Positions 5,731 to 60,872 of a stretch of 64,000 nt of DNA are shown in pieces; the first letter of the stretch is position 1; each line of letters starts with the position of its first letter. Origin of the DNA: Micropterix aruncella (lineage: Eukaryota > Arthropoda > Insecta > Lepidoptera > Micropterigidae). The translations under genes and the position numbers were made by a program. Where the stretch lies: positions 5,321,924 through 5,385,923 of the forward strand of contig OX155954.1 in the NCBI GenBank assembly GCA_944548615.1, given 5' to 3'. The notes under the pieces were generated by a model, which was not told the origin of the DNA, did not search any database, and saw nothing but the letters and a program-made list of their open reading frames with translations.

Positions 5731-5736
5731 TTTATT
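5731..5736 (-). promoter_or_regulatory. Candidate poly(A) signal of TMEM11/PMI
   Basis: AATAAA on the minus strand about 227 bp after the stop codon. It is the first canonical signal downstream and would give a short 3' UTR. The surrounding AT-rich DNA makes chance hexamers common. Confidence 0.45.
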
Positions 5737-5962: not shown

Positions 5963-6093
5963 CTATTTGTAGATTGAGTATACTCTGAAGATGGTGAGAG
6001 CAAACGCGAGGGACGCGGCCACACCGTGCAGAATGCATCTTCTGCGAGCTGCGCTTTCCTCTCGATACAATACTACCGCTCCACTTGCAGCAT
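5963..6093 (-). CDS. TMEM11 (PMI): TMEM11/PMI coding exon 4 and stop
   Basis: 131 bp after an ATTCCAG acceptor. It starts in phase 1, completes a GAT codon, then gives the GAVVLYREE motif, an arginine-rich stretch and a C-terminal hydrophobic segment ending ...VYSIYK and TAG. This matches the VVLVRK...KKIYELYAV end of the vertebrate protein in layout. The true frame is shorter than the two open shadow frames on the same strand. Confidence 0.88.
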
Positions 6094-9000
6094 CTGGAAT
6101 TGAGATAAAAATTTAAGTAATGCAAAATGGTGATTTATAGTTTAAGTGGATGTTGCTCCTTTGCGCATCCTACATAATAAGCAGGTTTTCTTTCAGCATG
6201 CAAAATTCAATTATCCTTTAACATATCCTAAAAAACAAAATAAAATTAATTGTGAACTGTCACATTGTCACATTGTCACAATGTGGCTATCGTCTAAAAC
6301 TCATAAGTATTTTTTCAAAATGAAAAATTTATTAACAAAAAAAAAGTTTTCTCTTTCTAAAATGACACGCTTGGGGGGTATTTGAAAGAGATAAATATAT
6401 TATTTTACAAGGTGTATCTGGATTTATAAACATTGCCAGTTGACATGCCGTTGCTGCTGATCAAAATTTAATGGCTGGCAATGTTCGGCAATATTCTGAA
6501 AATAAAAATAAACTCCACGTTCTCTTTCTAGCACCTAGATACCTCTCTGAAGTATGTAGATGTATGAAAGAGACAAATCTAAAACGAGAATATACTGCCC
6601 CACCGCTTTGTTGCAGGTTTTGATAATGTTGCCGACCTTTATATTAAGCGATTAAATCGTATGAAGCATTTGATAGCGACAAATCAAAAATAGTGACTGG
6701 CAACATTTCGCAGGGCCCACGCATAACGTATTAAAGCTATGTTTGTCTGTAACTAGAACATAGCTATGAGTTGGAAACGATACACTATTTCCTAAGAAGC
6801 GGATGTGGTTGATCATGATCAAGATGGTGTTTGCGATAAATTCGAACCGAATTACCACTTACATTAAGTAGAGGCCGCGCAAGCGGACTCTTCGGACCCT
6901 TAACCAGATGGTAGGACAGAGAAATCTGACCAAATCCAGTAGTAAGGACGTGAGGTCGGCCTGCGTGCATTTGTCAGTGTCACGGGGTAAGGCGATGGTC
7001 TCTTACAGGCATGTTGGCCTAGCTAGACGGTGGACTGTCTTCGTCCCAAGTCTCTACGTTCATCCCAGGTTGAAAGAACAATCAATATCGTTATACCTTA
7101 CTGGGGTGACGGGTTCGCCCTTTGTAGGTGACAACACCCCACTCTGCTAAGGATGTGGACCTGCTAGAGAGAGGACAGCAGCGCTTTACTAAACTGCCTT
7201 ATCAGTTTAAAAGATTGAGCTATGAGGAAAAACTTTAAGTCCTCAACCTGTTAACCCTGAAGGAACAACGAGAAAGGGGAGACTTATTTTTAAGATTCTT
7301 TCTGGGTATTACGATTGCAAAGACATTGTGTTCTTTTACCGCATAATGACAATAGAAACCTGCGAAGAAATGTTTTGAAGCTAGCAGTCACAAGATCTGA
7401 ACTGAATTCGAGGACGCACTTTCTATCCAACGGTGTTGTGAACAACTGGAATAGACTCTCTGACAAAGTAGTCGTCGCAAAAAATATCAACAGTTTTATA
7501 AATTAACTGGATAACTTTTCAAGTAAACAATAATAATAATAATTGTGATATAGGCTCACCAGCAGTAATGCTGCCAGCCTATTAGTTAAATAAAATACTA
7601 ACGGAGCTGCCATGGAATTCACCGACCGGAATTGGGCCTATTATCATTAATACTATTATTACACTTCTGGGGGGTGAGTTTTAATAATAGTATTTAATAT
7701 AAATATACAATAAAATACAAACGGAGCTGCCATGGAATTCACCGACCGAAGTAGGGCCCATCATATAGTATTATTACACTTCTGGAGGGTGAGCAGTGGA
7801 TTCCGGACTAACGACCGGCTGTGGTAGGTTTAGGACAATATTAATAATAATAACAAATTATCGTACTGCAATACTTAATATTGTTTATCGTATTGGTATC
7901 ACTTATCATAGTATCTGTGACAAGTTGCAGCTACAGTATCTTTGCTCTCGCGCCGCGATTGTTTTTGAGGAAATCTCGCTGTTTTCAGGTAATTTCTAAG
8001 CAAAAATTAAAAACTGTCATCGTTTAAGGTTTCTAGAGAAAAACTGAAAAAACCAGTATGATAGCCTTCGTCCAAGGAGTTTTGGCATTGTGTAATCCCT
8101 ATTTACCGCTTGTGTCGCAAAATACAATGTTTGGAAAAAATTCTTTGCTTTGTGCCCAATAATAAATACAAACGGAGCTGCCATGGAATTCACCGACCGG
8201 AGTCGGGCCCATCATAATACTAATTTTTTTACACTTCTGGGGGGTGAGCAGTAGATTCCGGAATTACGAACCGGCTGTGGTAGGTTTAGGACAGCTGTCT
8301 TGCCACATGTGAGCGTTCACCTTACCACCCATTCACTCCCCCTTCGAAGCCATAGAATTTGAGATGCGCAAATCGCAGTTTTAGATAATTTTTCTAAGAA
8401 AGAGTTCATTATTTTTCTGGAAAGGCCAAGATCTTTAAAGAGGTGAAATAGAGATTTAGCTGGCAGGCCACGAGCGCCAACTTCCACCGCGTGAAGGTGA
8501 ACAGTGTAGTCTGTGATTTGAGAAGCCAGAGGAAAGCAAGAGAACGGTTATTATTACATTTTTATAGCAACAGCGTTCATAATGCAGTTTAAAAATGATT
8601 CTGACAACTAATTAAAACAAATAAAAAATCTTTTCACTCGCTGAAAGTGATTCGATCGTGAGAAAAAAAACGATCATAAAAAAAACAGGGCTCTGCAAAT
8701 CCTCCACTGGCCAGCAATCCATCGGTGGGAAGTTTTACATAAATTTAAATGCATTTGTCCAGAATACTGCCCTTATGTGTGAAAAATAGAATAATGTACC
8801 TCCTCCTTCCCATAGAGCTGCTAGACGCGCCAGTTTCCTTTTGTCAGTTTCATGTCGGTAGACGAAACACGGATCAAGCTGCCAACTGACCGCTAGACAA
8901 CTAGCTGACAAAACTGACACACAGCAGAGCGGTACACACACCACCAGCGCGTTGTTTGCATTTCTCACGCAGACACCTGTAATCCAAAGTGCACTATTTA

Positions 9001-12000
9001 CAATTGATCTGATGGGTATCTATATTTCTGCATGCAATAATGTTTCCCGAATTTACTCTATGTACATACAATTTATGTTCAGTCACTAGATAGATATAAT
9101 ATTGGGTCCTTACCTATGAAGTTGCTGTTATATAAAGGAAATTTAACCCTTGGAGTAAATGGGTATTTTCATGGATGCATCTGTCTCTTTTGCAGGATTT
9201 TCGGCGACATCGACTTAAAGTACTATAACTACGAAACTACTACACCAATCATAAAAAGAACAACTGCACAATGATTGCATTGAAATTTCGAATATAGAAT
9301 ATTGAAATATCATTTTGTAAAACAATTAGATAATTATGAATAAATATGAGAACGTCAAAGAAGTGAAAAAAACGCGCGACCAGATTTGGTCGACTCGTAC
9401 TCAACGGATAATTGTTTCGCGACCAGATTTGGTTGACTCATACTCAACGGGTTAAGGCCAAAAACTTTGTATCAAAAATATATTTAATTAATAGAAATAT
9501 TGACCCCTATTATCTATGCAGATTTTAATGGAAGTAACTTAACCCTTCGGGCCCCGATTGGCCGATATCGGCCACAAAACGATTCAGCGTGACGGCCCCG
9601 TTTTAATTTTATTTTAATTTAATTTGTTTTATTTTATTATGTTTTATTATATTAATATGTTTCATTTTAATTATGGGTACAGTCGTTTGGCAGTAATTAA
9701 TGTTTTGGTGAGACAGTGTCATAATTCAATTTCTTTAGTAATTTTTACTAATTTTTTTTTGGGACATCAACTTGTTAATCGGCTGAGGGGCCGAGGCCTG
9801 AAGGGTTAATTCCTCTGCTGTAAACTCTCGTAGACAGGAACCAATGAATGCTTAGAAGGCATTTTTCACCAGCTTTTCAAAGTTGATTTTTTTCCCTTGT
9901 AAAAAGTAATCTTAATTCTGAAAAAAAAATGAAACTCTATTGGAGCAAAGTCTGGCACGTGCGGTGGGTGACCAAGAGTTTCCAGCTGCAACTCCTGCAA
10001 CTTTGCAACAGTTTGCAGTGAAAGCTGTGGTTATACAATGTCATGCAGAAGCAGTGGAGATGAGCGATTAATCAGGCTCGGTTATTTCTCACATCATTGT
10101 TTGCAGTTCTTAACAGTACACATTTATGTTAACTGTATAGCCAGATTGCATGAAGCTGTAATAGAAAGCACCGGCACAAGATCTCATATTTGAAAATAAT
10201 GCAAATTTTCAACTTTACCATGGTTGCACAAACAAAAATATTTCAGCAAAAATAGGCGACGGAATAGGCGACAAGAATAACAAAAAAAAGAATAACATGG
10301 CCTTGATTTCAAATTTATTTGAATTTGAAATACCAACTCAAACCCAAGTTATCCAAGTTCAAAGTGGCCAGTGTGAAAAAACAGCAATTACATAGGTAAG
10401 GACCCAATAATAAAAATAGGCCATCATTAATCCTAATACCATATATACTTTTTATATATGGTCTTAATTCTAGCGTTAATTTAATAATAATAATCAAGGG
10501 TTTTCTCCTCCCCTTTCTCTCGTACCAGTGAGAATGATGTAAGCTGAATTAAAGCGGATGCACCGGTCACCCTCGCGCGGACGGCTTTAGATAGAGAAAG
10601 GTGGTATTGTTGAGTTCATTTTGTAACATGACTAGGACATGTAGATTTTGAATCTTTAGCCATTGTGCACATCAACATCAAATAAATAAAATACAAACGG
10701 AGTTGCCACGGAATTCACCGACCAAAGTTGGGCCTCATAAAACTATCTATTTTTTTTTACACTTCTGGGGGGTGAGCGGTGGATTCCGGACTAACGACAG
10801 GCTATGGTAGATTTAGGACAACTGTCTTGCAACATGTGAGCGTCCACCTTACCACCCTACCTTCGAAGCTGACCATTAGCCGACCATTTATGAGATATTG
10901 ATAAGGGTGCGTTGCCGACATCTACGAAAAAGGTTGTATGTCGCCTCTGTTCTTTGATCGAAAGAGTCATTAAAAGTCATTACAAAATAATATCCAAAGT
11001 CCAGTTAATTTATTACCAACTATTCAAAATTAAAACAAAAATTGAGAACCAGACGAAGGTTGCTTATTATATTCGGTTTATATTATTATTATTTTGGTCT
11101 ACGTAAGTTAATGTCAATTAATTAATTAAAAATGCAATTAAACTGTTGATTAGGAACAAAATTTTCACCTGTAGTATCTGGGGACTATCGCCCCTGGCTT
11201 TATGTCATTTCTATCAATTCTGCCTCCCCCCCCCCACCCCGCAACTTCTCTTTTCGATGCCCTGCACACACTAGTAAGACTGATGGACACCCAAATCTCA
11301 TTAATTAAAATATTGATTAAAAGCAAGAGATATCAAATATCTGGAAAACAATTTTAAACTGTAATGTTCTACTATGTTATCATATAAAAACATTTTTTAA
11401 CCCGTTGAGTATGAGTCAACCAAATCTGGTCGCGAAACAATTATCCGTTGAGTACGAGTCGACCAAATCTGGTCGCGCGTTTTTTTCACTTCTTTGATGT
11501 TCTCATATTTATTCATAATTATCTAATTGTTTTACAAAATAATATTTCAATATTCTATATTCGAAATTTCAATGCAATCATTGTGCAGTTGTTCTTTTTA
11601 TGATTGGTGTAGTAGTTTCGTAGTTATAGTACTTTAAGTCGATGTCGCCGAAAATCCTGCAAAAGAGACAGATGCATCCATGAAAATACCCATTTACTCC
11701 AAGGGTTAACCCACTCCACTCTAATTCTTTCCCATTTGAGGTCATTTCAGAAGAGTTTGTAACGACTGGTCTGGGTGACTAAATTACTTAAACAATAATG
11801 TGGTTCATGTTAATTATAGGACTATATTGAATGTTTAATAAGAAAAAAATTATCTTTAATATTTATTTATTAAAAATAATAGTATGGACATTAGAAAATT
11901 TTGCTGTTTAAAAGTTTAGAAATATTGTAGGAGTCCATTTAGTGTTTGTAGTGTATCGGTAGTTAGGTTAGCTGTCATGGCATTCTAGGGTAGTCATAAA

Positions 12001-14513
12001 TTAGTCAGTCAATACTAAACACACTCGAAAGCATATGATAACTCGAAAATTGGCATTTTTGAGATAAGTATGCCAGAAGATGTAAAAATATCAACTCTAT
12101 AGTCCCTTAAAACCAGATAACTGAAATTTCCCCGCCCTTAGGAGTTAACGGGAGTTGATAAGTTGAAAATCAGCTCCAGGTATAATACTAAAAATCGATA
12201 TGTAGACTTATCTAGCTGAAAGTTGGCAGCACTGTCTGCTATCGCAGTGCAAAAACTCGATATCTTCACTTATCTAGGTTAACATTAGTATTAGGTCGAC
12301 TTATTAGTTTCCAGAAATCAAAAATGGTGGACGAGTTGAAACTTTAAAAAAACATTAAAACGCGTTTATCTCAGAACTACTAAATTCGAGTTATCAAGTT
12401 ATAATAGTGAGGCGACAATATGATAGCTAATATAACTAACATTACACTACAGTACTGAAATTGCACGGTGGTCCTAATGAGATGGCCAACCACTGTAGAA
12501 CGGTTTGAGAGGATACTCACCGACGAGCAGAGTGGCTGCGCCCGTGGCGAGTGCGAGTACGTGTAGGGCTTTTCCGACGCGTATCCATCGCACTGTGTCC
12601 TCACCCAGGCGCTCGGGCTCCACCACGATGACCGCGCAGCCCGCCTCCAGCGCGCGCTCCAGCTCCGCCTCGAACTTGGCGTACGCCTTCTCGCTGTCGT
12701 ACACCTCGCGGATCACCGCCACGTTCGACGGCTTCAGCTCCCTTAGGACCGAAAGATGGAAAACTCGCATTAAAGTTAATCCGCACTTGAGCATCGGTAG
12801 CGCTGCATTTATTTCGCTCATCTGCACTAGGCCTAAGCTATATGGACCATTGATATATTAGCTAGATATGCCCTCACATACAAATAAGTCGGTTCCACTA
12901 ACCCTTTGCTCATAAATCATGTGACAGAGAGAGCAATAAATTAAACAGTATGCGAGAGAATAGCGCGGCGATATTCTTCGCGGCAGCTCTCACACCCGAA
13001 ACGGTCGGCTGCTGCCAGCGGCCTGTGACAAACTACTACTGGCCGGCTTTCAGTAGTGGTTTTGAAAGGGTCATTTTCGAGCGCGAAAGGCCCATTTAGG
13101 GCATAATATGGACAGAAGTATACAGTCAACAACCATCTTTTTTACTTAGTTTTAAAGATTATTAAAAAAAACTAATCTTTATCTACCGCCATATAGGTGT
13201 TTTTGTACATATATTTTTTTAAATAACTTTAACTACCGAAATGTAAGCATGGGATTGACTCTTCTTTGAATGCCATCATCTCGCTTATTTATTGAGGCTG
13301 AATAAAAATTATTGAAGATTAGGAATCAGCATGGGGAATAAAGTCGGGTGACATAAAAAATCACCAATGTATAACCTAGACAGTCTACCCTAGACAACGG
13401 CGGCTGCAACGTCACCGAAACGTCACCGAAACGTCGGGTCCTACAAATTTCACGCGCTAATTTCGTTTTCTATCCTATTTATAATGTATAACAGGTTCCT
13501 ATAATGCATTAAGGAATTATTGCAGTATAGGAACATTTCTCAAAAATCGAAAAATTAAAGAAATACTACTAGATTCGATCACGCTAATGCTAAATGTGAA
13601 AGAAAAAAGCCTCGGACGCGTAAAATTTTAAAACCAAATTTATATACTAAAAAAAAAGTTTTTCAAACTAATTTTTTAAGGTTGTTTTTAAAAAAACTAA
13701 TCTAACCTAATAGGTGTTTATGTATTATTTAACAAATAATAATAACTTAACCTACCTAAATATATGGGTTTGGCGCTTCTTTGAATGCCTATATCTCGCT
13801 TATTTATTGAGACCGAATAAAGATTATTGCAGGTTCCGAATCAGCGTGGTAAATATAATTAAGTGACATTAAAAAATCAACAATCTAGAAGAGGTTCCTA
13901 TACTGCAATAATACCTGCAATATACTGCAATAATACCGATTAACTTTTTGGTACTTGTTTTTTTTTATTTTTTTACTTGATTTCTCCGTTGATATATCAG
14001 AAAAGTACACCGCTTTTGAAGTGCCTTGGGACCTTCCTGATTGTTTACTTTTAGTTTTAGCTGCGGTTAAATCCCAAACCCCAGCCTGGACCCCTTCCAA
14101 AGCAAAATCCTGACTACGTATCTGCCTAGCCTTAAAATAATTAAATAATGTATCAAACTTAATGAAAACTGTCAAACACATCCTATAAAAACTGAAGGCG
14201 AATAAAACGAAAACTGAAATTGAAAACTAGCAAAACGGCAAGAACAAGACAACACGTTACCTTGGCTAAAGGCTAGTGGGTGACGGAATACTGCAATTTC
14301 ACCAAAATAAATACCGGAACGGTACAAAATAAAACCCGAATCGCCGGCAAGACAACGGCCGCTACGATTACGTAACACAGTCCCGTAACAAATATTTGAG
14401 AATTAATAATACAAAGACAAAATACGCACGCGTCAAATGTATCAAATTAAAAAATAATAACAAAAAGCGAGCTATATTATTAAAACAAACCTGTCCAAAT
14501 CGTCGCTCGCCAT
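5963..14513 (-). CDS. TMEM11 (PMI): TMEM11/PMI homologue, mitochondrial membrane protein, complete 4-exon gene
   Basis: The coding exons are 14491-14513, 12521-12741, 8800-8976 and 5963-6093. They join in phase (2, 1, 1) through GT-AG introns of 1749, 3544 and 2706 bp and encode 183 residues; the human protein is 192. Family hallmarks are visible: a REVYDSEKA...FEAELERALEAG segment (residues about 19-42), EPERLGEDTVRWIRVG (49-64), SWQLDPC (112-118) and VVLYRE followed by a basic stretch before the C-terminus. Hydrophobic segments lie at about 66-83, 91-113 and 161-182. In animals this family shapes mitochondria and cristae and is linked to MICOS; inner- and outer-membrane locations have both been reported. 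The start at 14513 has a good context (AGAATGG). An in-frame upstream ATG at 14528 would add five residues but has a weaker context. The exons are much richer in GC than the introns. No frameshift or stop is seen, so the gene looks intact. Confidence 0.9.
6857..7146 (+). repeat. SINE-like repeat, diverged copy of the one at 56690-56945
   Basis: In intron 3 of TMEM11. Shared blocks include AAATCTG...C, AGTAAGG.CGTGAG, GGTAAGGCG, CTTACAG/CTGTTACGG and GGTGGACTGT..TCGTCC. It runs directly into a LINE 3' fragment at 7149, so it may be the 3' part of a composite retroposon. Confidence 0.5.
7149..7530 (+). pseudogene. Non-LTR retrotransposon (CR1/L2-like) C-terminal remnant
   Basis: The first frame gives KDVDLLERGQQRFTKLP, FKRLSYEEKL, a stop, then LTLKEQRERGDLFLRFF, the classic block after the RT thumb. 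After a frameshift, 7315-7506 gives RNVLKLAVTRSELNSRTHFLS then NGVVNNWNRLSDKVV, the usual LINE terminus. One in-frame stop and at least one frameshift make it dead. An AAT-rich tail follows. It lies antisense to TMEM11 in intron 3. Confidence 0.8.
7600..7839 (-). mobile_element. Two truncated 3' ends of a LINE family (same as 8160-8547)
   Basis: The block ACGGAGCTGCCATGGAATTC...CACTTCTGGGGGGTGAG occurs at 7600-7677 and again, longer, at 7718-7839. In the full copy at 8160-8547 it is the 3' UTR downstream of a minus-strand coding end, so these are 5'-truncated insertions of that family. Confidence 0.65.
8160..8547 (-). mobile_element. 5'-truncated LINE insertion with coding end and 3' UTR
   Basis: The longest of four copies in the intron region (others 7600-7677, 7718-7839, 10687-10876). 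On the minus strand it has coding sequence (8317-8547), then about 155 bp of conserved 3' UTR ending in CCGTTTGTATTTATT. It has the same orientation as TMEM11, within intron 3. Confidence 0.75.
8317..8547 (-). pseudogene. LINE C-terminal coding fragment (VEVGARG motif)
   Basis: An open stretch of 76 codons to a TGA: FPLASQITDYTVHLHAVEVG, then ARGLPAKSLFHLFKDLGLS, ending LWLRRG. The EVGARG plus SLxxLLxxLGLS pattern is common at the C-terminus of retrotransposon polyproteins in invertebrates and fish. A TAA precedes 8547, so the upstream part is lost. Confidence 0.7.
8800..8976 (-). CDS. TMEM11 (PMI): TMEM11/PMI coding exon 3
   Basis: 177 bp between a TTACAG acceptor and a GTACAT donor, phase 1 on both sides. 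It encodes the second membrane segment and the SWQLDPC...Y signature followed by KLARL, which lines up with SWQFDPC and LSRL in the vertebrate protein. The reading frame runs on past the donor, which makes the ORF look longer than the real exon. Confidence 0.9.
9147..9451. mobile_element. piggyBac-like MITE, 305 bp, copy 1
   Basis: Flanked by TTAA on both sides (9143-9146, 9452-9455), with ends CCCTTGGAGTA and TACTCAACGGG as short imperfect TIRs. It contains two tandem GACCAGATTTGGT(C/T)GACTC blocks. A near-identical inverted copy sits at 11401-11705. Confidence 0.85.
9543..9805. mobile_element. piggyBac-like MITE, 263 bp, second family
   Basis: TTAA flanks (9539-9542, 9806-9809) and TIRs CCCTTCGGGCC / GGCCTGAAGGG. 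GC-rich ends (GGCCGATATCGGCC) surround a T-rich core. Confidence 0.8.
10687..10876 (-). mobile_element. Truncated LINE 3' end (family of 8160-8547)
   Basis: Carries the same CGGAGTTGCCACGGAATTC to CTTACCACCC...CTTCGAAG block. It breaks off a few codons inside the coding end. It is preceded on the plus strand by AATAAATAAAATACAA, the tail of the family. Confidence 0.65.
11401..11705. mobile_element. piggyBac-like MITE, 305 bp, copy 2 (inverted)
   Basis: Flanked by TTAA (11397-11400, 11706-11709). It is the reverse complement of 9147-9451 with almost no differences, so it is a recent transposition within the same intron. Confidence 0.85.
12521..12741 (-). CDS. TMEM11 (PMI): TMEM11/PMI coding exon 2
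   Basis: 221 bp. The acceptor follows a pyrimidine tract (TTTTCCATCTTTCGGTCC, then TAAG) and the donor is a strong GTGAGT. It encodes residues 8-81: the conserved acidic N-terminal domain and most of the first membrane segment. The exon is strikingly GC-rich with many C/G third positions, unlike the AT-rich introns. This is the best-conserved part of the protein. Confidence 0.9.
13130..13507. mobile_element. TATAGGAACC-TIR element, partial, with nested insertion
   Basis: Shares ACTTAGTTTTAAAGATT, CCGCCATATAGGTGTTT, TCTCGCTTATTTATTGAG and GGTTCCTATAATGCATT with the copies at 13517-13911 and 32828-33637. The 5' end is lost. A 107-bp piece of the CGAAACGTCGGGTGC family (13376-13482) is inserted near the 3' end. 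Confidence 0.7.
13376..13482. mobile_element. Single arm of the CGAAACGTCGGGTGC repeat, nested
   Basis: Flanked by AATGTATAAC on both sides (13366-13375, 13483-13492). Paralogous elements lack the insert at this point, so the boundaries are well supported. It contains a doubled GTCACCGAAAC. Confidence 0.65.
13517..13911. mobile_element. TATAGGAACC-TIR MITE, complete
   Basis: Perfect 18-bp terminal inverted repeats (TTATTGCAGTATAGGAAC and its complement). The 395-bp body holds TCTCGCTTATTTATTGAG and no coding capacity. Confidence 0.8.
14491..14513 (-). CDS. TMEM11 (PMI): TMEM11/PMI coding exon 1
   Basis: Short first coding exon: ATG plus six codons and two bases (MASDDLD, then AG), ending at a GTTTGT donor. 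Phase 2 fits exon 2 exactly, making an AGG arginine codon across the junction. A three-residue upstream ORF (ATG AAT GAG TGA) overlaps the leader just upstream, and an in-frame ATG lies at 14528. No homology anchors such a short exon, so the call rests on phase, Kozak context and donor. Confidence 0.72.
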
Positions 14514-14700
14514 TCTCACTTCACTCATTCATCTGCTGACTGACGGCTACTGTCAAATTATGCCTGCGTTCAGTAAGCAACCGCTCCTTTAATAGTGCTA
14601 CCTAGCGAACTACCTGATTGGTCGAAGCGGATCTTTTTACAAATTATTGCAACTGCCCGTCGACCCAGGTAGCTACACAATTGGGATGAACAAAGTCCAC
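14514..14700 (-). promoter_or_regulatory. Presumed leader/promoter region of TMEM11/PMI
   Basis: DNA directly upstream of the start codon, somewhat richer in GC than its surroundings, with two upstream ATGs (one opening a three-residue uORF, one in frame). No TATA box stands out, and the transcription start cannot be fixed from sequence alone. Confidence 0.35.
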
Positions 14701-16145: not shown

Positions 16146-16779
16146 AGGTTCGCGCATCCACTCTGTTCCGCACATCTGCAACTGCTCCAATGGAGACGGC
16201 GCGCGCATCAACTCGAGAACAACGAGTGCTCCGCAGTTTTCATTCGAACGTTGAGCGAACATGTCATCGACAAAATGTATTTTTAAATTTCTCATCCTTC
16301 GGATCCCACAGCACTGTCAGTGTACGTTAATCGCGATTGACGACTAACGATTGATTCGTTTAATCGTCAATCGGCGACTAACGATTGATTAGTTTCAAGC
16401 GCGATTGACGATTAGACGTCTGGGATTGATTTTCTCGATTGCGGTCAACTCAGTTTATGCGTTTTTTCGTCGGTCGGTGCGGTCGGTCGCGACCGCAGAC
16501 GCGACCGCAGACGCGACCGCGAACCGCGCGATTTCTCCTCGGCCCACTCCACACCGATGGATTCGTGTTTACTGAACGCCGAACGTGATGCGCGAGACGT
16601 AGGTATCCACCAACGTCTCATTTTGCACGCGTCCACGAACTTTGTGTTCGCGCATTTACTGCCACCGCTCGGAGCGCTCGCCGCGGAACGTGCAACGTTG
16701 CACGCTCCAGAAGCGCGGACGTATCCACTACCTACTGGAGCAGTTGCAGGTGCGCGGAGCAGAGTTGATGAGCGAACCT
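16146..16779. mobile_element. GC-rich TIR element, about 634 bp
   Basis: Imperfect inverted ends of about 45 bp (AGGTTCGCGCATCCACTC...CTGCAACTGCTCC against AGGTTCGCTCATCAACTC...CTGCAACTGCTCC). The core has repeated CGATTGACGACTAACGATTG and (GACCGCAGACGC) motifs. It abuts the Jockey-like RNase H remnant. No transposase. Confidence 0.6.
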
Positions 16780-17420
16780 TCTGCTGGATCCCTAGTCATT
16801 CGGGGATTAGGGGAAACGAGACGGTGTACGAGCTGGCGAATTCGGCTCGCACTTTCGGCTCCGAAGTCGATTGTCGTCTGCCTGTCTCCGACTTCTTCCC
16901 CTCGATAGACAATAAACTTTTAAAAAATTGGACTCAGCGATGGTGCACTTCCTCTAACACAAAGGGCAAGAGGTTCTCACTTATCCAGGGCGAAATCCCT
17001 TCGAATCAGTAGTACCACCAGCAGCCATTTAGTCGGCAAGAGATATCGATAATCTGCCTCATGAGGATCGGGCACTGCTCCACCCCTTCGCACCTCCATC
17101 GTATTAATGTCCTCGTGTCTCCGCCGTGCGATTGTGGACGCTGGACCACCTATTTTTTAACTGCCCCATCCTCAATAATTATCCGAGTTTTGTCCCAGAC
17201 CTTATAAACTATAACATCCAACTCCCTGTATGTATTCTCCACTTGTTATCCCTCAACTCTCCCAAAATATAAAGCAATATGTAAATTTATTTCCCTTAAT
17301 AATATTTGTGTATAATCTTAGTATATTTCATATCCTCTCCCCGTTTGTATCATCCCTGATTACCATATTTTATGTTATATGTCAACATGGTACCTACATT
17401 TGTATAAATAAATCTTTTTC
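16767..17420 (+). pseudogene. Jockey/R1-like non-LTR element: RNase H and C-terminal zinc knuckle
   Basis: RTFCWIPSHSGIRGNE followed by VYELANSA is the last catalytic block of a retrotransposon RNase H domain. Downstream, in shifted frames, come RQEISIICLMRIGHCSTPSHLHR, PPCDCG and TLDHLFFNCPILNNYP, the CCHC-like tail of these elements, then a stop. A 3' UTR runs to AATAAATC at about 17408-17415. At least one stop and two frameshifts show it is dead, and everything 5' of RNase H is missing. Confidence 0.8.
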
Positions 17421-27963: not shown

Positions 27964-30484
27964 GCAGTGCCGGATTAGCCACGTAGCAAGAGTAGCAAAT
28001 GCAACGGGCTCCGCGCATTGGGGGGGCCCGCGCACCCACGCCTGCCTGAGCGTAAAATTTTTGCTGCAGCCTGCAACAGGCCAATGGGAAACGTTAAATA
28101 TAATCAACGGCGGGGCGCGGGGCCGAGTTTGGGAATTAGTATCTCCATTTTAAGAAAGAACGACTTTACGCACTTTTTATATGTTATGTATAATATCATC
28201 AGCTATGTAAAGTAAAATTTTGAACTTCCTAAAGTGGGATTCTCGATGCCTGCCAGACCGAAGTTTGAGCGGCCTCCACGACCATTACATAAAGTCATCG
28301 GCGCGAAGCGGGACCGAGTTTGGGAATTAATATCTCCAATTTATGAAAAACTATCCACGCACTTTTTATATGTGATAATATCATCAGCTATGTATAGTAA
28401 AATTTTGTACCTTCTAAAGTGGGATTCTCGATGCTTGCCAGACCTATGTATAGAGGCTATGTATAGTAAAATTTTGAACTTCCTAAAGTGGGATTCTCGA
28501 TGCCTGCCAGAACGAAGTTTGAGCGGCCGCTCGCCCATTAAATATAACCATCAACGGGGCGCGGGCCCGAGTTTGGGAATTAATATCTCCAATTTAAGAA
28601 GAAACGACTTTATGCACCTTTTATATGTGATGTATAATATCATCAGCTATGTAAAGTAAAATTTTGAACTTCCTAAAGTGGGATTCTCGATGCCTGCCAG
28701 ACCGAAGTTTGAGCGGCCTCCACGACCATTACATAAAGTCATCGGCGCGAAGCGGGACCGAGTTTGGGAATTAATATCTCCAATTTATGAAAAACTATCC
28801 ACGCACTTTTTATATGTGATAATATCATCAGCTATGTATAGTAAAATTTTGTACCTTCTAAAGTGGGATTCTCGATGCTTGCCAGACCGAAGTTTGAGCG
28901 GCCGCCTCGCCCATTAAATATTATCATCGGCGGGGCGCGGGCCCGAGTTTGGGAATTAATATCTCCAATGTAAGAGAAACCGACCTTTAGCACTTTTGAA
29001 ATGTAATGTACAATATCATTAGCTATGTATAGTAACATTTTGAACTTCCTAAAGTAGGATTCTCGATGCCTGCCAGACCGAAGTTTGAGCGGCTGCCACG
29101 ACCATTATATGCAGTCATCTTAAATTGGAGATATTAATTCCCATACAGTCATACCACTTCAGGATGTTCAAAATTTTGCTTTACATAGCTGATGACATTA
29201 TACATCTGATATAAAAAGAACATGAGGTGATTTTTTCTTAAATTGGAGATATTAATTCCCAAACTCGGGCCCGCGCCGCGCCGATGACTTTATGTAATGT
29301 TCGTAGCGGCCGCTCAAACTTCGGTCTGGCAGGCATCGAGAATCCCACTTGAGGAAATTCAAAATTTTATTATACATAGCTAATGATATTATACATCACA
29401 TATAAAAAGTGCGTTAGGTCTTTTTTTCTTAAATTAGAGATATTAATTCCCAAACTCGGGACCGCGCCACGCCGATGACTGTATGTAATGGTCGTGGCAG
29501 CCACTCAAACTTCGGTCTGGCAGGCATCGAGAATCCCACTTTAGGAAGTTTAAAATTTTATTATATATAGCTGATAATATTATACATCACATATAAACAG
29601 TACATGAGGTCGTTTTTTCTTAAATTGGAGATATTAATTGTTAAACTCGACCCCGCGCCATGCCGATGATTATATTTAATGGGCGAGGCGGCTGCTCAAA
29701 CTTCGGTCTGGCAGGCATCGACAATCCCACTTTAGGAAGTTCAAAATTTTACTATACATAGCTGATGATATAAAAATCACATATAAAAAGTGCGTGAGGT
29801 CGGTTTTTCTTAAATTGTAGATATTAATTCCCATACTCGGGCCCGCGACGCAATATTATGAAGCGAATTGTAAGCATTGCTCAATAAGGCGAAAAATATT
29901 GGGCACTGTTTATTTACTTTTGTTAAGCGGTGCATTTCCTTTTTTGTAATTATTATGAGTAAAGTAGGAGTTTTTTATTGTTTTTTATTTAGTATTCGTT
30001 AATAAAGGTGCGCCGTACAATAATGGCTGAACTGTCGGTATGAATTATATAAAAAACGGTCTGATTTTACTTAGATTGTAGTTTGTGTCCACATTGCAAA
30101 ATTTCACACAGTTTGTTGAAAAAGTAAATTGTACATATGTTTATATTTTTAAAACAACAGTGCCAGTGTTGTAAATATATTTTATTTTTGTATTTATATT
30201 GTCGAATATGATTGAAACTGTGATAGTTGAATATTTCCTCAATTTAATTTTCCTGCAGTTTTGGTCGTAGCTGTGGCGCCGATTTTTTTTATTTCTCTTT
30301 GAAAACATTTTTGGATTACATGGTAACTCCAAAAATTATATTTTATTACCTTGTTTTAGGAATAAAAGGGATCTATCAAAAAATTATATTTTATTTTACA
30401 CCCTAAACTTAAGAACCTAAAGCAAACCAAGGGCCTTTTGAGAGAATTTGCTACGGACCCCGCGCTGGCTTAATCCGGCACTGC
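27964..30484. mobile_element. Non-autonomous hAT-like transposon, about 2.5 kb
   Basis: The ends GCAGTGCCGGATTAGCC and GGCTTAATCCGGCACTGC are inverted repeats of the hAT 'CAGTGCCGGATTA' type. Flanks CCTTGCCG and AGTTGCCG agree at six of eight bases, as an aged 8-bp duplication would. Subterminal GGGCTCCGCGC and GACCCCGCGC also mirror each other. Inside is no transposase but an inverted satellite-like array (28085-29850) and an AT-rich tail. The small ORFs here only translate the repeat units. Confidence 0.8.
28085..29850. repeat. Inverted array of about 190-bp units inside the hAT-like element
   Basis: The unit contains CGAGTTTGGGAATTAATATC, TTATATGTGATAATATCATC, CTAAAGTGGGATTCTCGATG and CCGAAGTTTGAGCGGCC. 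Units run head to tail on the plus strand to about 29100 and in reverse complement from about 29119 to 29850. Confidence 0.85.
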
Positions 30485-36715: not shown

Positions 36716-36928
<213 letters not shown>

Positions 36929-37059
36929 TTATTTACGAGTATAAACTACATCTTGAAATACTCATGATATTGCAATAGTTACTATCCTAATTTGATATGA
37001 CAATGAAGTTCGCTCGCGCGTTTAACAAATATACTCATCGAATTAGACATTTTAATACG

Positions 37060-37257: not shown

Positions 37258-40873
<3,616 letters not shown>

Positions 40874-40896: not shown

Positions 40897-41033
<137 letters not shown>

Positions 41034-41073
41034 TTTGATAGTTTTGTGTATATATTCTTTTTAGAATTGATCA

Positions 41074-42454
<1,381 letters not shown>

Positions 42455-60120: not shown

Positions 60121-60800
60121 GTAAGTTAACGGCAGCGGATGTCGATATCAATGTCTGGATTGATGACGTAACTAAACTTGTCTGTAATTGACAACAATTA
60201 GATAAAATTAATAATTATTCCAACGTCATGAAGGCAGAATGTTATATTTCAACCTTTTCTATCACTGTATTCTATCAGGTTTAGTTTTACATGGTTTTTA
60301 CTTCTTTACAGCCTGCAAAGGTGGTGTTAATATACTGTAGTTAGCGGATTTAATCCACGTGTCTAAGGCCACGTCCTAAAGTGTCATATATTTGTTGATC
60401 ATATTATTCACGGTTTTCACTTTTTCTGCATGATATTCTAAGCAGAATCCTGGGAGCCATTTGGGGCCAGACTTATGAAATACAAGGTGGGTACGCGCCC
60501 ACCTGTGCCCACCTGTTGGCGGGTCTGGGAGTATGATGATATAAAATAACCAATAGTTGGTCACACAGGGGAGAAAAGAGACAGAGAGGCTTATTGTTTG
60601 TTTGTTTTTACTCTTTATTGTGAAAATGTCACAATGGGCGGGTTTATTGTCATATGACAATCTCTTACAACCAACCCTACTATGACGTGTTATATGTATG
60701 TGTGCGTTTAACATGTGTGTAAGTGTGTGTCTTGTTATTGCATTCGATCGACAGAATCGAAAAATGCAATTCCGTTAATTTGATCCCAACGGAAAATGGT
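60121..60800. other. Non-coding stretch
   Basis: GGGTACGCGCCCACCTGTGC CCACCTGTTGGCGGG around 60488-60530 is GC-rich but unidentified. Confidence 0.35.
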
Positions 60801-60872
60801 GACCCAGCCGGGAATCGAACCCGGGACCTTACAATGTAAGATCAGACAACCTAACCACTATGCCACCGGGCC
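60801..60872 (-). pseudogene. tRNA-derived pseudogene or SINE head with encoded CCA
   Basis: 72 bp. The acceptor stem GGCCCGG/CTGGGTC pairs at all seven positions (two G-U type). Box A (TGGCATAGTGG) and box B (GGTTCGATTCC) match the Pol III consensus, and the T stem is perfect. The anticodon arm instead forms GATCTTAC/GTAAGGTC with a three-base loop, so there is no proper seven-base anticodon loop. ACCA follows the acceptor stem in the DNA, then TTTT. The encoded CCA points to retroposition of a mature tRNA. Confidence 0.7.

Follow-up and report, generated by a model that had tools for sequence, protein, structure and literature searches.

The 64-kb stretch of DNA analysed here (hereafter the window) very probably carries a functional insect ortholog of TMEM11, the Pmi of Drosophila, which lies on the minus strand in four exons, encodes a mitochondrial membrane protein and derives from a lepidopteran, a trichopteran or a near relative. 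The protein belongs to the well-known TMEM11/Pmi family and represents no new kind of biology. The analysis provides a dependable gene model for insect DNA that is rich in repeats and in which single-ORF searches give fragments only. As an unusually diverged Pmi, the protein could also mark those parts of the family sequence that are tolerant of change.

Gene structure and translation start

Rebuilt from the DNA of the minus strand, the joined coding sequence comprises 552 nt, runs from ATG to TAG and encodes 183 amino acids with no internal stop. Exon 1 (14491..14513, 23 nt) opens with the ATG, encodes residues 1-8 and ends within a split Arg codon (phase 2). Exon 2 (12521..12741, 221 nt, residues 8-82) contains EPERLG, RWIRVG and the beginning of the first hydrophobic segment, exon 3 (8800..8976, 177 nt, residues 82-141) the second hydrophobic segment and SWQLDPC, and exon 4 (5963..6093, 131 nt, residues 141-183) the C-terminal hydrophobic segment and the TAG stop. 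The introns, at 12742..14490 (1749 nt), 8977..12520 (3544 nt, with inverted TTAA-bounded elements) and 6094..8799 (2706 nt), are all bounded by GT-AG and have phases 2, 1 and 1. Four minus-strand exons that join at GT-AG sites in these phases without a stop had been proposed in a preliminary description of this DNA, and the rebuilt 183 codons bear this out. The three motifs named there were likewise read from the translation by eye in the expected order, EPERLG at residues 49-54, RWIRVG at 59-64 and SWQLDPC at 112-118. Its wording of a "complete" and "hidden" gene makes too much of an ordinary split gene of unremarkable exon layout with an in-frame alternative start.

A rough home-made score applied across the gene region gives, for introns 1, 2 and 3, donor ranks of 38, 5 and 31 among 499 sites and acceptor ranks of 33, 152 and 28 among 472; the acceptor of intron 2 is thus weak by this measure. 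Gene models of relatives bear on two of the intron sites. Proteins P0007 and P0008 depart from the family sequence right after the Gly that matches the end of exon 2, and P0002 (Cryptotermes) and P0007 have unlike N-termini up to the Arg at which exon 2 starts here. Judged from the protein letters, these models look like read-through of introns at matching places, which would support both sites. GC3 of the coding sequence is 0.64, compared with a GC content of 0.35-0.39 in the introns; exons 1-2 reach about 0.85, exons 3-4 only 0.46-0.50. The first AATAAA 3' of the stop, at 5731..5736 on the minus strand, is a candidate polyadenylation signal as a motif match, not as evidence of use.

A second in-frame ATG at 14528, 15 nt upstream of the ATG at 14513, would add MSEVR as a 5-residue N-terminal extension (14514..14528, minus strand), and a short out-of-frame upstream ORF begins at 14532. 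The ATG at 14513 is the likelier start, as it has the better start context and its alignment to the starts of all five Lepidoptera compared is free of gaps (for example MASDDLDRELKPSNV here and MAGDESDRDLKPSSV in Scirpophaga); the annotated Plutella model has a longer N-terminus and starts further upstream. It is conceivable, if unlikely, that exons 2-4 are correct and that the true first exon or start lies elsewhere, for example at 14528 or in the open stretch just 5' of exon 2, where the frame stays open for 39 codons that include ATGs. Exon 1 is a mere 23 nt long, which is in keeping with such an error. However, its eight residues share three to five identities with each of seven Lepidoptera, the ungapped fit of the 14513 start in five of five Lepidoptera speaks for the position chosen, and the N-termini of Cryptotermes P0002 and of P0007 that resemble intron read-through end, in their protein letters, at the same Arg codon.

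Family membership and relationships

The spliced protein matches the Pfam family PF14972 (Mito_morph_reg) with an E-value of 4.8e-45 and 153.5 bits, the curated cut-off being 27, over positions 2-159 of the 159 in the profile. A match so far above the cut-off and across nearly the full profile argues that the gene model did not arise by chance. NTPase_1, the only other Pfam family listed for the protein (0.024), is below its own cut-off. All eight matches of a first protein search with the spliced translation, the check suggested in the preliminary description, carry PF14972, with Periplaneta americana (46% identity) and Cryptotermes secundus (44%) at the top. Two profile searches returned 651 and 386 proteins at an E-value of 0.001 or better, and among the best 120 of each the entries with a source name are, by eye, nearly all from arthropods. 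Identity to 40 TMEM11/Pmi proteins is 37-51%, including 40% to the vertebrate row used (Lethenteron, P0006). A comparison of the family profile with solved structures gave no match at 0.001.

The set fetched for comparison comprised 49 distinct proteins (P0003 was fetched twice), 40 of which were used in a tree of 41 rows and in the column counts at 95% conservation; nine without a source name were left out (P0004, P0005, P0007, P0008, P0013, P0014, P0035, P0060 and P0106). In this tree the window protein groups with seven Lepidoptera and one caddisfly, Arctopsyche, with support of 100/97. Six further proteins were fetched, of which P0125, P0130 and P0136 (two Diptera and one lepidopteran-like row, P0125) were added to an enlarged tree and P0124, P0126 and P0141 were left out; here the grouping has support of 100/99.9. 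P0125 owes its lepidopteran label to its own sequence and was excluded from the counts at 90% conservation. Together with the PF14972 match, this grouping with insect orthologs upholds the original identification as an insect TMEM11/PMI.

Placement is loose. A clade of the window protein and the Lepidoptera has support of 58/0, and a tree constrained to unite the window protein with Arctopsyche exceeds the result of the free search by 0.92 log units (AU p 0.553), so that these sequences favour neither lepidopteran nor trichopteran kinship. Uniting the window protein with the two Diptera costs 17 log units but is not rejected (AU p 0.153). The end branch of the window protein measures 1.02 against a median of 0.23 and is the longest of the 41 rows.

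Compared with the Pmi of Plutella xylostella (P0029) and Scirpophaga incertulas (P0015), the window protein has the start position, RWI-VG, SWQ-DPC and a near-full-length profile match in common, but has additional residues close to where exons 2/3 and 3/4 join and within the ESAARR stretch. The trichopteran Pmi of Arctopsyche grandis (P0003) has the highest exon 2 identity among the rows listed (49/74), whereas identity drops to 18/50 in exon 3 and 10/40 in exon 4.

In the gene model of P0124 (Parnassius apollo), the TMEM11 domain ends at position 129 of the 159 in the profile and is followed by an acidic stretch. This acidic part, which is reminiscent of the N-terminus of piggyBac transposases, matched no Pfam family at 0.01.

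Divergence and constraint

The window protein is 45-51% identical to the seven Lepidoptera, which share 76-90% with each other. As an exon-by-exon control we compared it with two of the seven (Spodoptera and Plutella) and with the caddisfly. In exon 2 its identity to these three is 61-66%, close to the 66-70% between the caddisfly and the same two Lepidoptera. Over exons 3 and 4 its identity to the three drops to 25-48%, against 55-63% between the caddisfly and the two Lepidoptera; with the two Lepidoptera only, the window protein reaches 38-48% in exon 3 and 30-38% in exon 4, against 59-63% and 55-60% for the caddisfly. By this sequence comparison, the excess divergence is mainly in exons 3 and 4.

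Divergence of this extent is accompanied by retention of most positions that the family holds constant. Among 39 columns conserved at 95% or more in 40 other rows, the family letter is kept at 33, the six departures being E56D, N65K, K69V, Y109L, Q122R and P146A; each of the 40 other rows shows 0 to 5 departures on 31 to 35 comparable columns. At columns conserved at 90% or more in 42 other rows, 38 of 46 are kept, whereas 19 of the 68 variable columns show the consensus letter (p 6e-9, one-sided Fisher test). The difference also appears in exons 2, 3 and 4 alone (p 0.0002, 0.010 and 0.038), with 25/28, 10/13 and 3/5 conserved columns kept, the last being few. That most conserved columns are kept points to a working gene, and this retention, taken together with the coding GC3 above intron GC and the intact frame, splice dinucleotides and stop, favours one. 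The long branch and the six changes at 39 near-invariant columns count against a working gene, and the drop in GC3, the low identity in exons 3-4, the loose placement and the weak acceptor of intron 2 count against a functional ortholog. The fast divergence is most simply explained by a long or fast-evolving lineage.

The unusually long branch, the changed conserved columns and the excess divergence of exons 3 and 4 would also be expected of a diverged, intron-bearing paralog under relaxed or changed selection, with a second, conventional TMEM11 elsewhere in the genome. We consider this improbable. The conserved columns are mostly retained across exons 2 to 4, and a tblastn search of the 64-kb window with 41 proteins detected no second copy, giving strong matches at the exons and weak ones otherwise, the best of which (E 0.004, one spider row) lies in intron 1 at 13114-12923. 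A recently dead or dying pseudogene copy that has not yet acquired a stop would account for the long branch, the altered near-invariant residues and the lower GC3 of exons 3 and 4, but it is very improbable given that splice dinucleotides, frame and stop are all intact and the conserved columns are retained.

Predicted product and function

From the gene model we infer transcription from the minus strand and splicing of the four coding exons. The spliced mRNA would yield the 183-residue protein, in which Kyte-Doolittle hydropathy peaks at about residues 63-87, 88-113 and 160-179 predict three membrane segments. By analogy with its family, the protein would sit in a mitochondrial membrane, where it would help to set mitochondrial shape and cristae, and possibly mitophagy sites. 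TMEM11/Pmi is described in PMC11325201 as a mitochondrial membrane protein that is required for normal mitochondrial shape and interacts with MICOS proteins, with abnormal mitochondria in fly mutants and after human knock-down. According to the same source, the human protein was first assigned to the inner membrane and later, together with BNIP3 and BNIP3L, to the outer membrane, where the zebrafish Tmem11 proteins are likewise placed; the abstract of PMC12007815, in contrast, terms TMEM11 an inner-membrane protein. The three hydropathy peaks fit the three membrane crossings that PMC11325201 gives as predictions for zebrafish and human TMEM11. Three predicted crossings and the family role in mitochondrial shape are what the window protein has in common with zebrafish Tmem11 as described in PMC11325201. 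A literature search on TMEM11 together with Lepidoptera returned nothing beyond a METTL review.

Repeats within the introns

In intron 2, one 313-nt element occurs twice in inverted orientation, at 9143..9455 and 11397..11709, with two mismatches between the copies. Each copy extends from TTAA to TTAA with ends beginning TTAACCC. Compared with each other, the two ends of a copy agree at 13 of their first 15 positions and at 15 of 24. Since 373 of 19971 random pairs of TTAA ends in the window reach 15 of 24, the similarity of the ends by itself is modest evidence. TTAA termini and terminal inverted repeats that start with CCC define piggyBac-like MITEs, and both arms have these features; from their sequence they look like two piggyBac-like MITE insertions. 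A single composite transposon with 313-nt terminal repeats is less likely than two inverted MITE copies, because the inner end of each arm is also TTAA. Between the arms lie 1941 nt, in which the longest open stretch, counted by eye, measures 77 aa. No third copy emerged when the gene region was compared with the entire window at pieces of at least 60 nt.

In the pre-mRNA, the inverted MITE pair could form a predicted 313-bp hairpin. One may speculate that exons 3-4 of this Pmi, which encode its C-terminal half with membrane segments 2-3 and the intervening loop, have been released from constraint or re-tuned, with substitutions at residues that are otherwise near-invariant, perhaps in the wake of changed partners of the MICOS or BNIP3 type, and that the hairpin from the near-perfect inverted pair in intron 2 could feed endo-siRNA production or RNA editing at this gene; we regard this combined proposal as unlikely.

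An interspersed repeat family (AAATACAAACGGAGCTGCCATGGAATTCACCGACCG...) occurs in introns 2 and 3 at 7593-7838, 8164-8330 and 10689-10857, with pieces 82-88% alike. Two repeat patterns, one of them from this family, had no matches when scanned in viral_contigs.

Surroundings of the gene

The preliminary description had called this the only gene in the window that is both recognisable and intact. A Pfam scan agrees with this for 118 of the 220 stop-to-stop ORFs of at least 58 aa left after a low-complexity filter (the 140 longest minus 22 omitted), a set that genes in shorter exons could escape: Mito_morph_reg, with two members and a best E-value of 1.6e-24, is the sole confident family. The best E-values of 23 other families range from 0.0005 to 0.098 per protein, which is compatible with chance as 118 proteins were scanned, and 10 longer ORFs matched no Pfam family at 0.1. 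One open frame of 198 aa at 16416-17009 on the plus strand, without a Pfam family at 0.1, contains a stretch reminiscent of the RNase H end of non-LTR retrotransposons.

AT/TA dinucleotides form very long arrays at 40902-41763, 39779-40008 and 36721-36932, the longest with about 431 copies. Two arrays of a 191-nt tandem repeat lie close together at 28456-29107 and 29154-29847; by eye, their consensus units start with sequences that look reverse-complementary, as would be expected of an inverted satellite pair. At 60800-60872 on the minus strand, a weak tRNA match (31.3 bits in Rfam, cut-off 29), to which ARAGORN assigns a four-base anticodon and no amino acid, is perhaps a tRNA-derived repeat.
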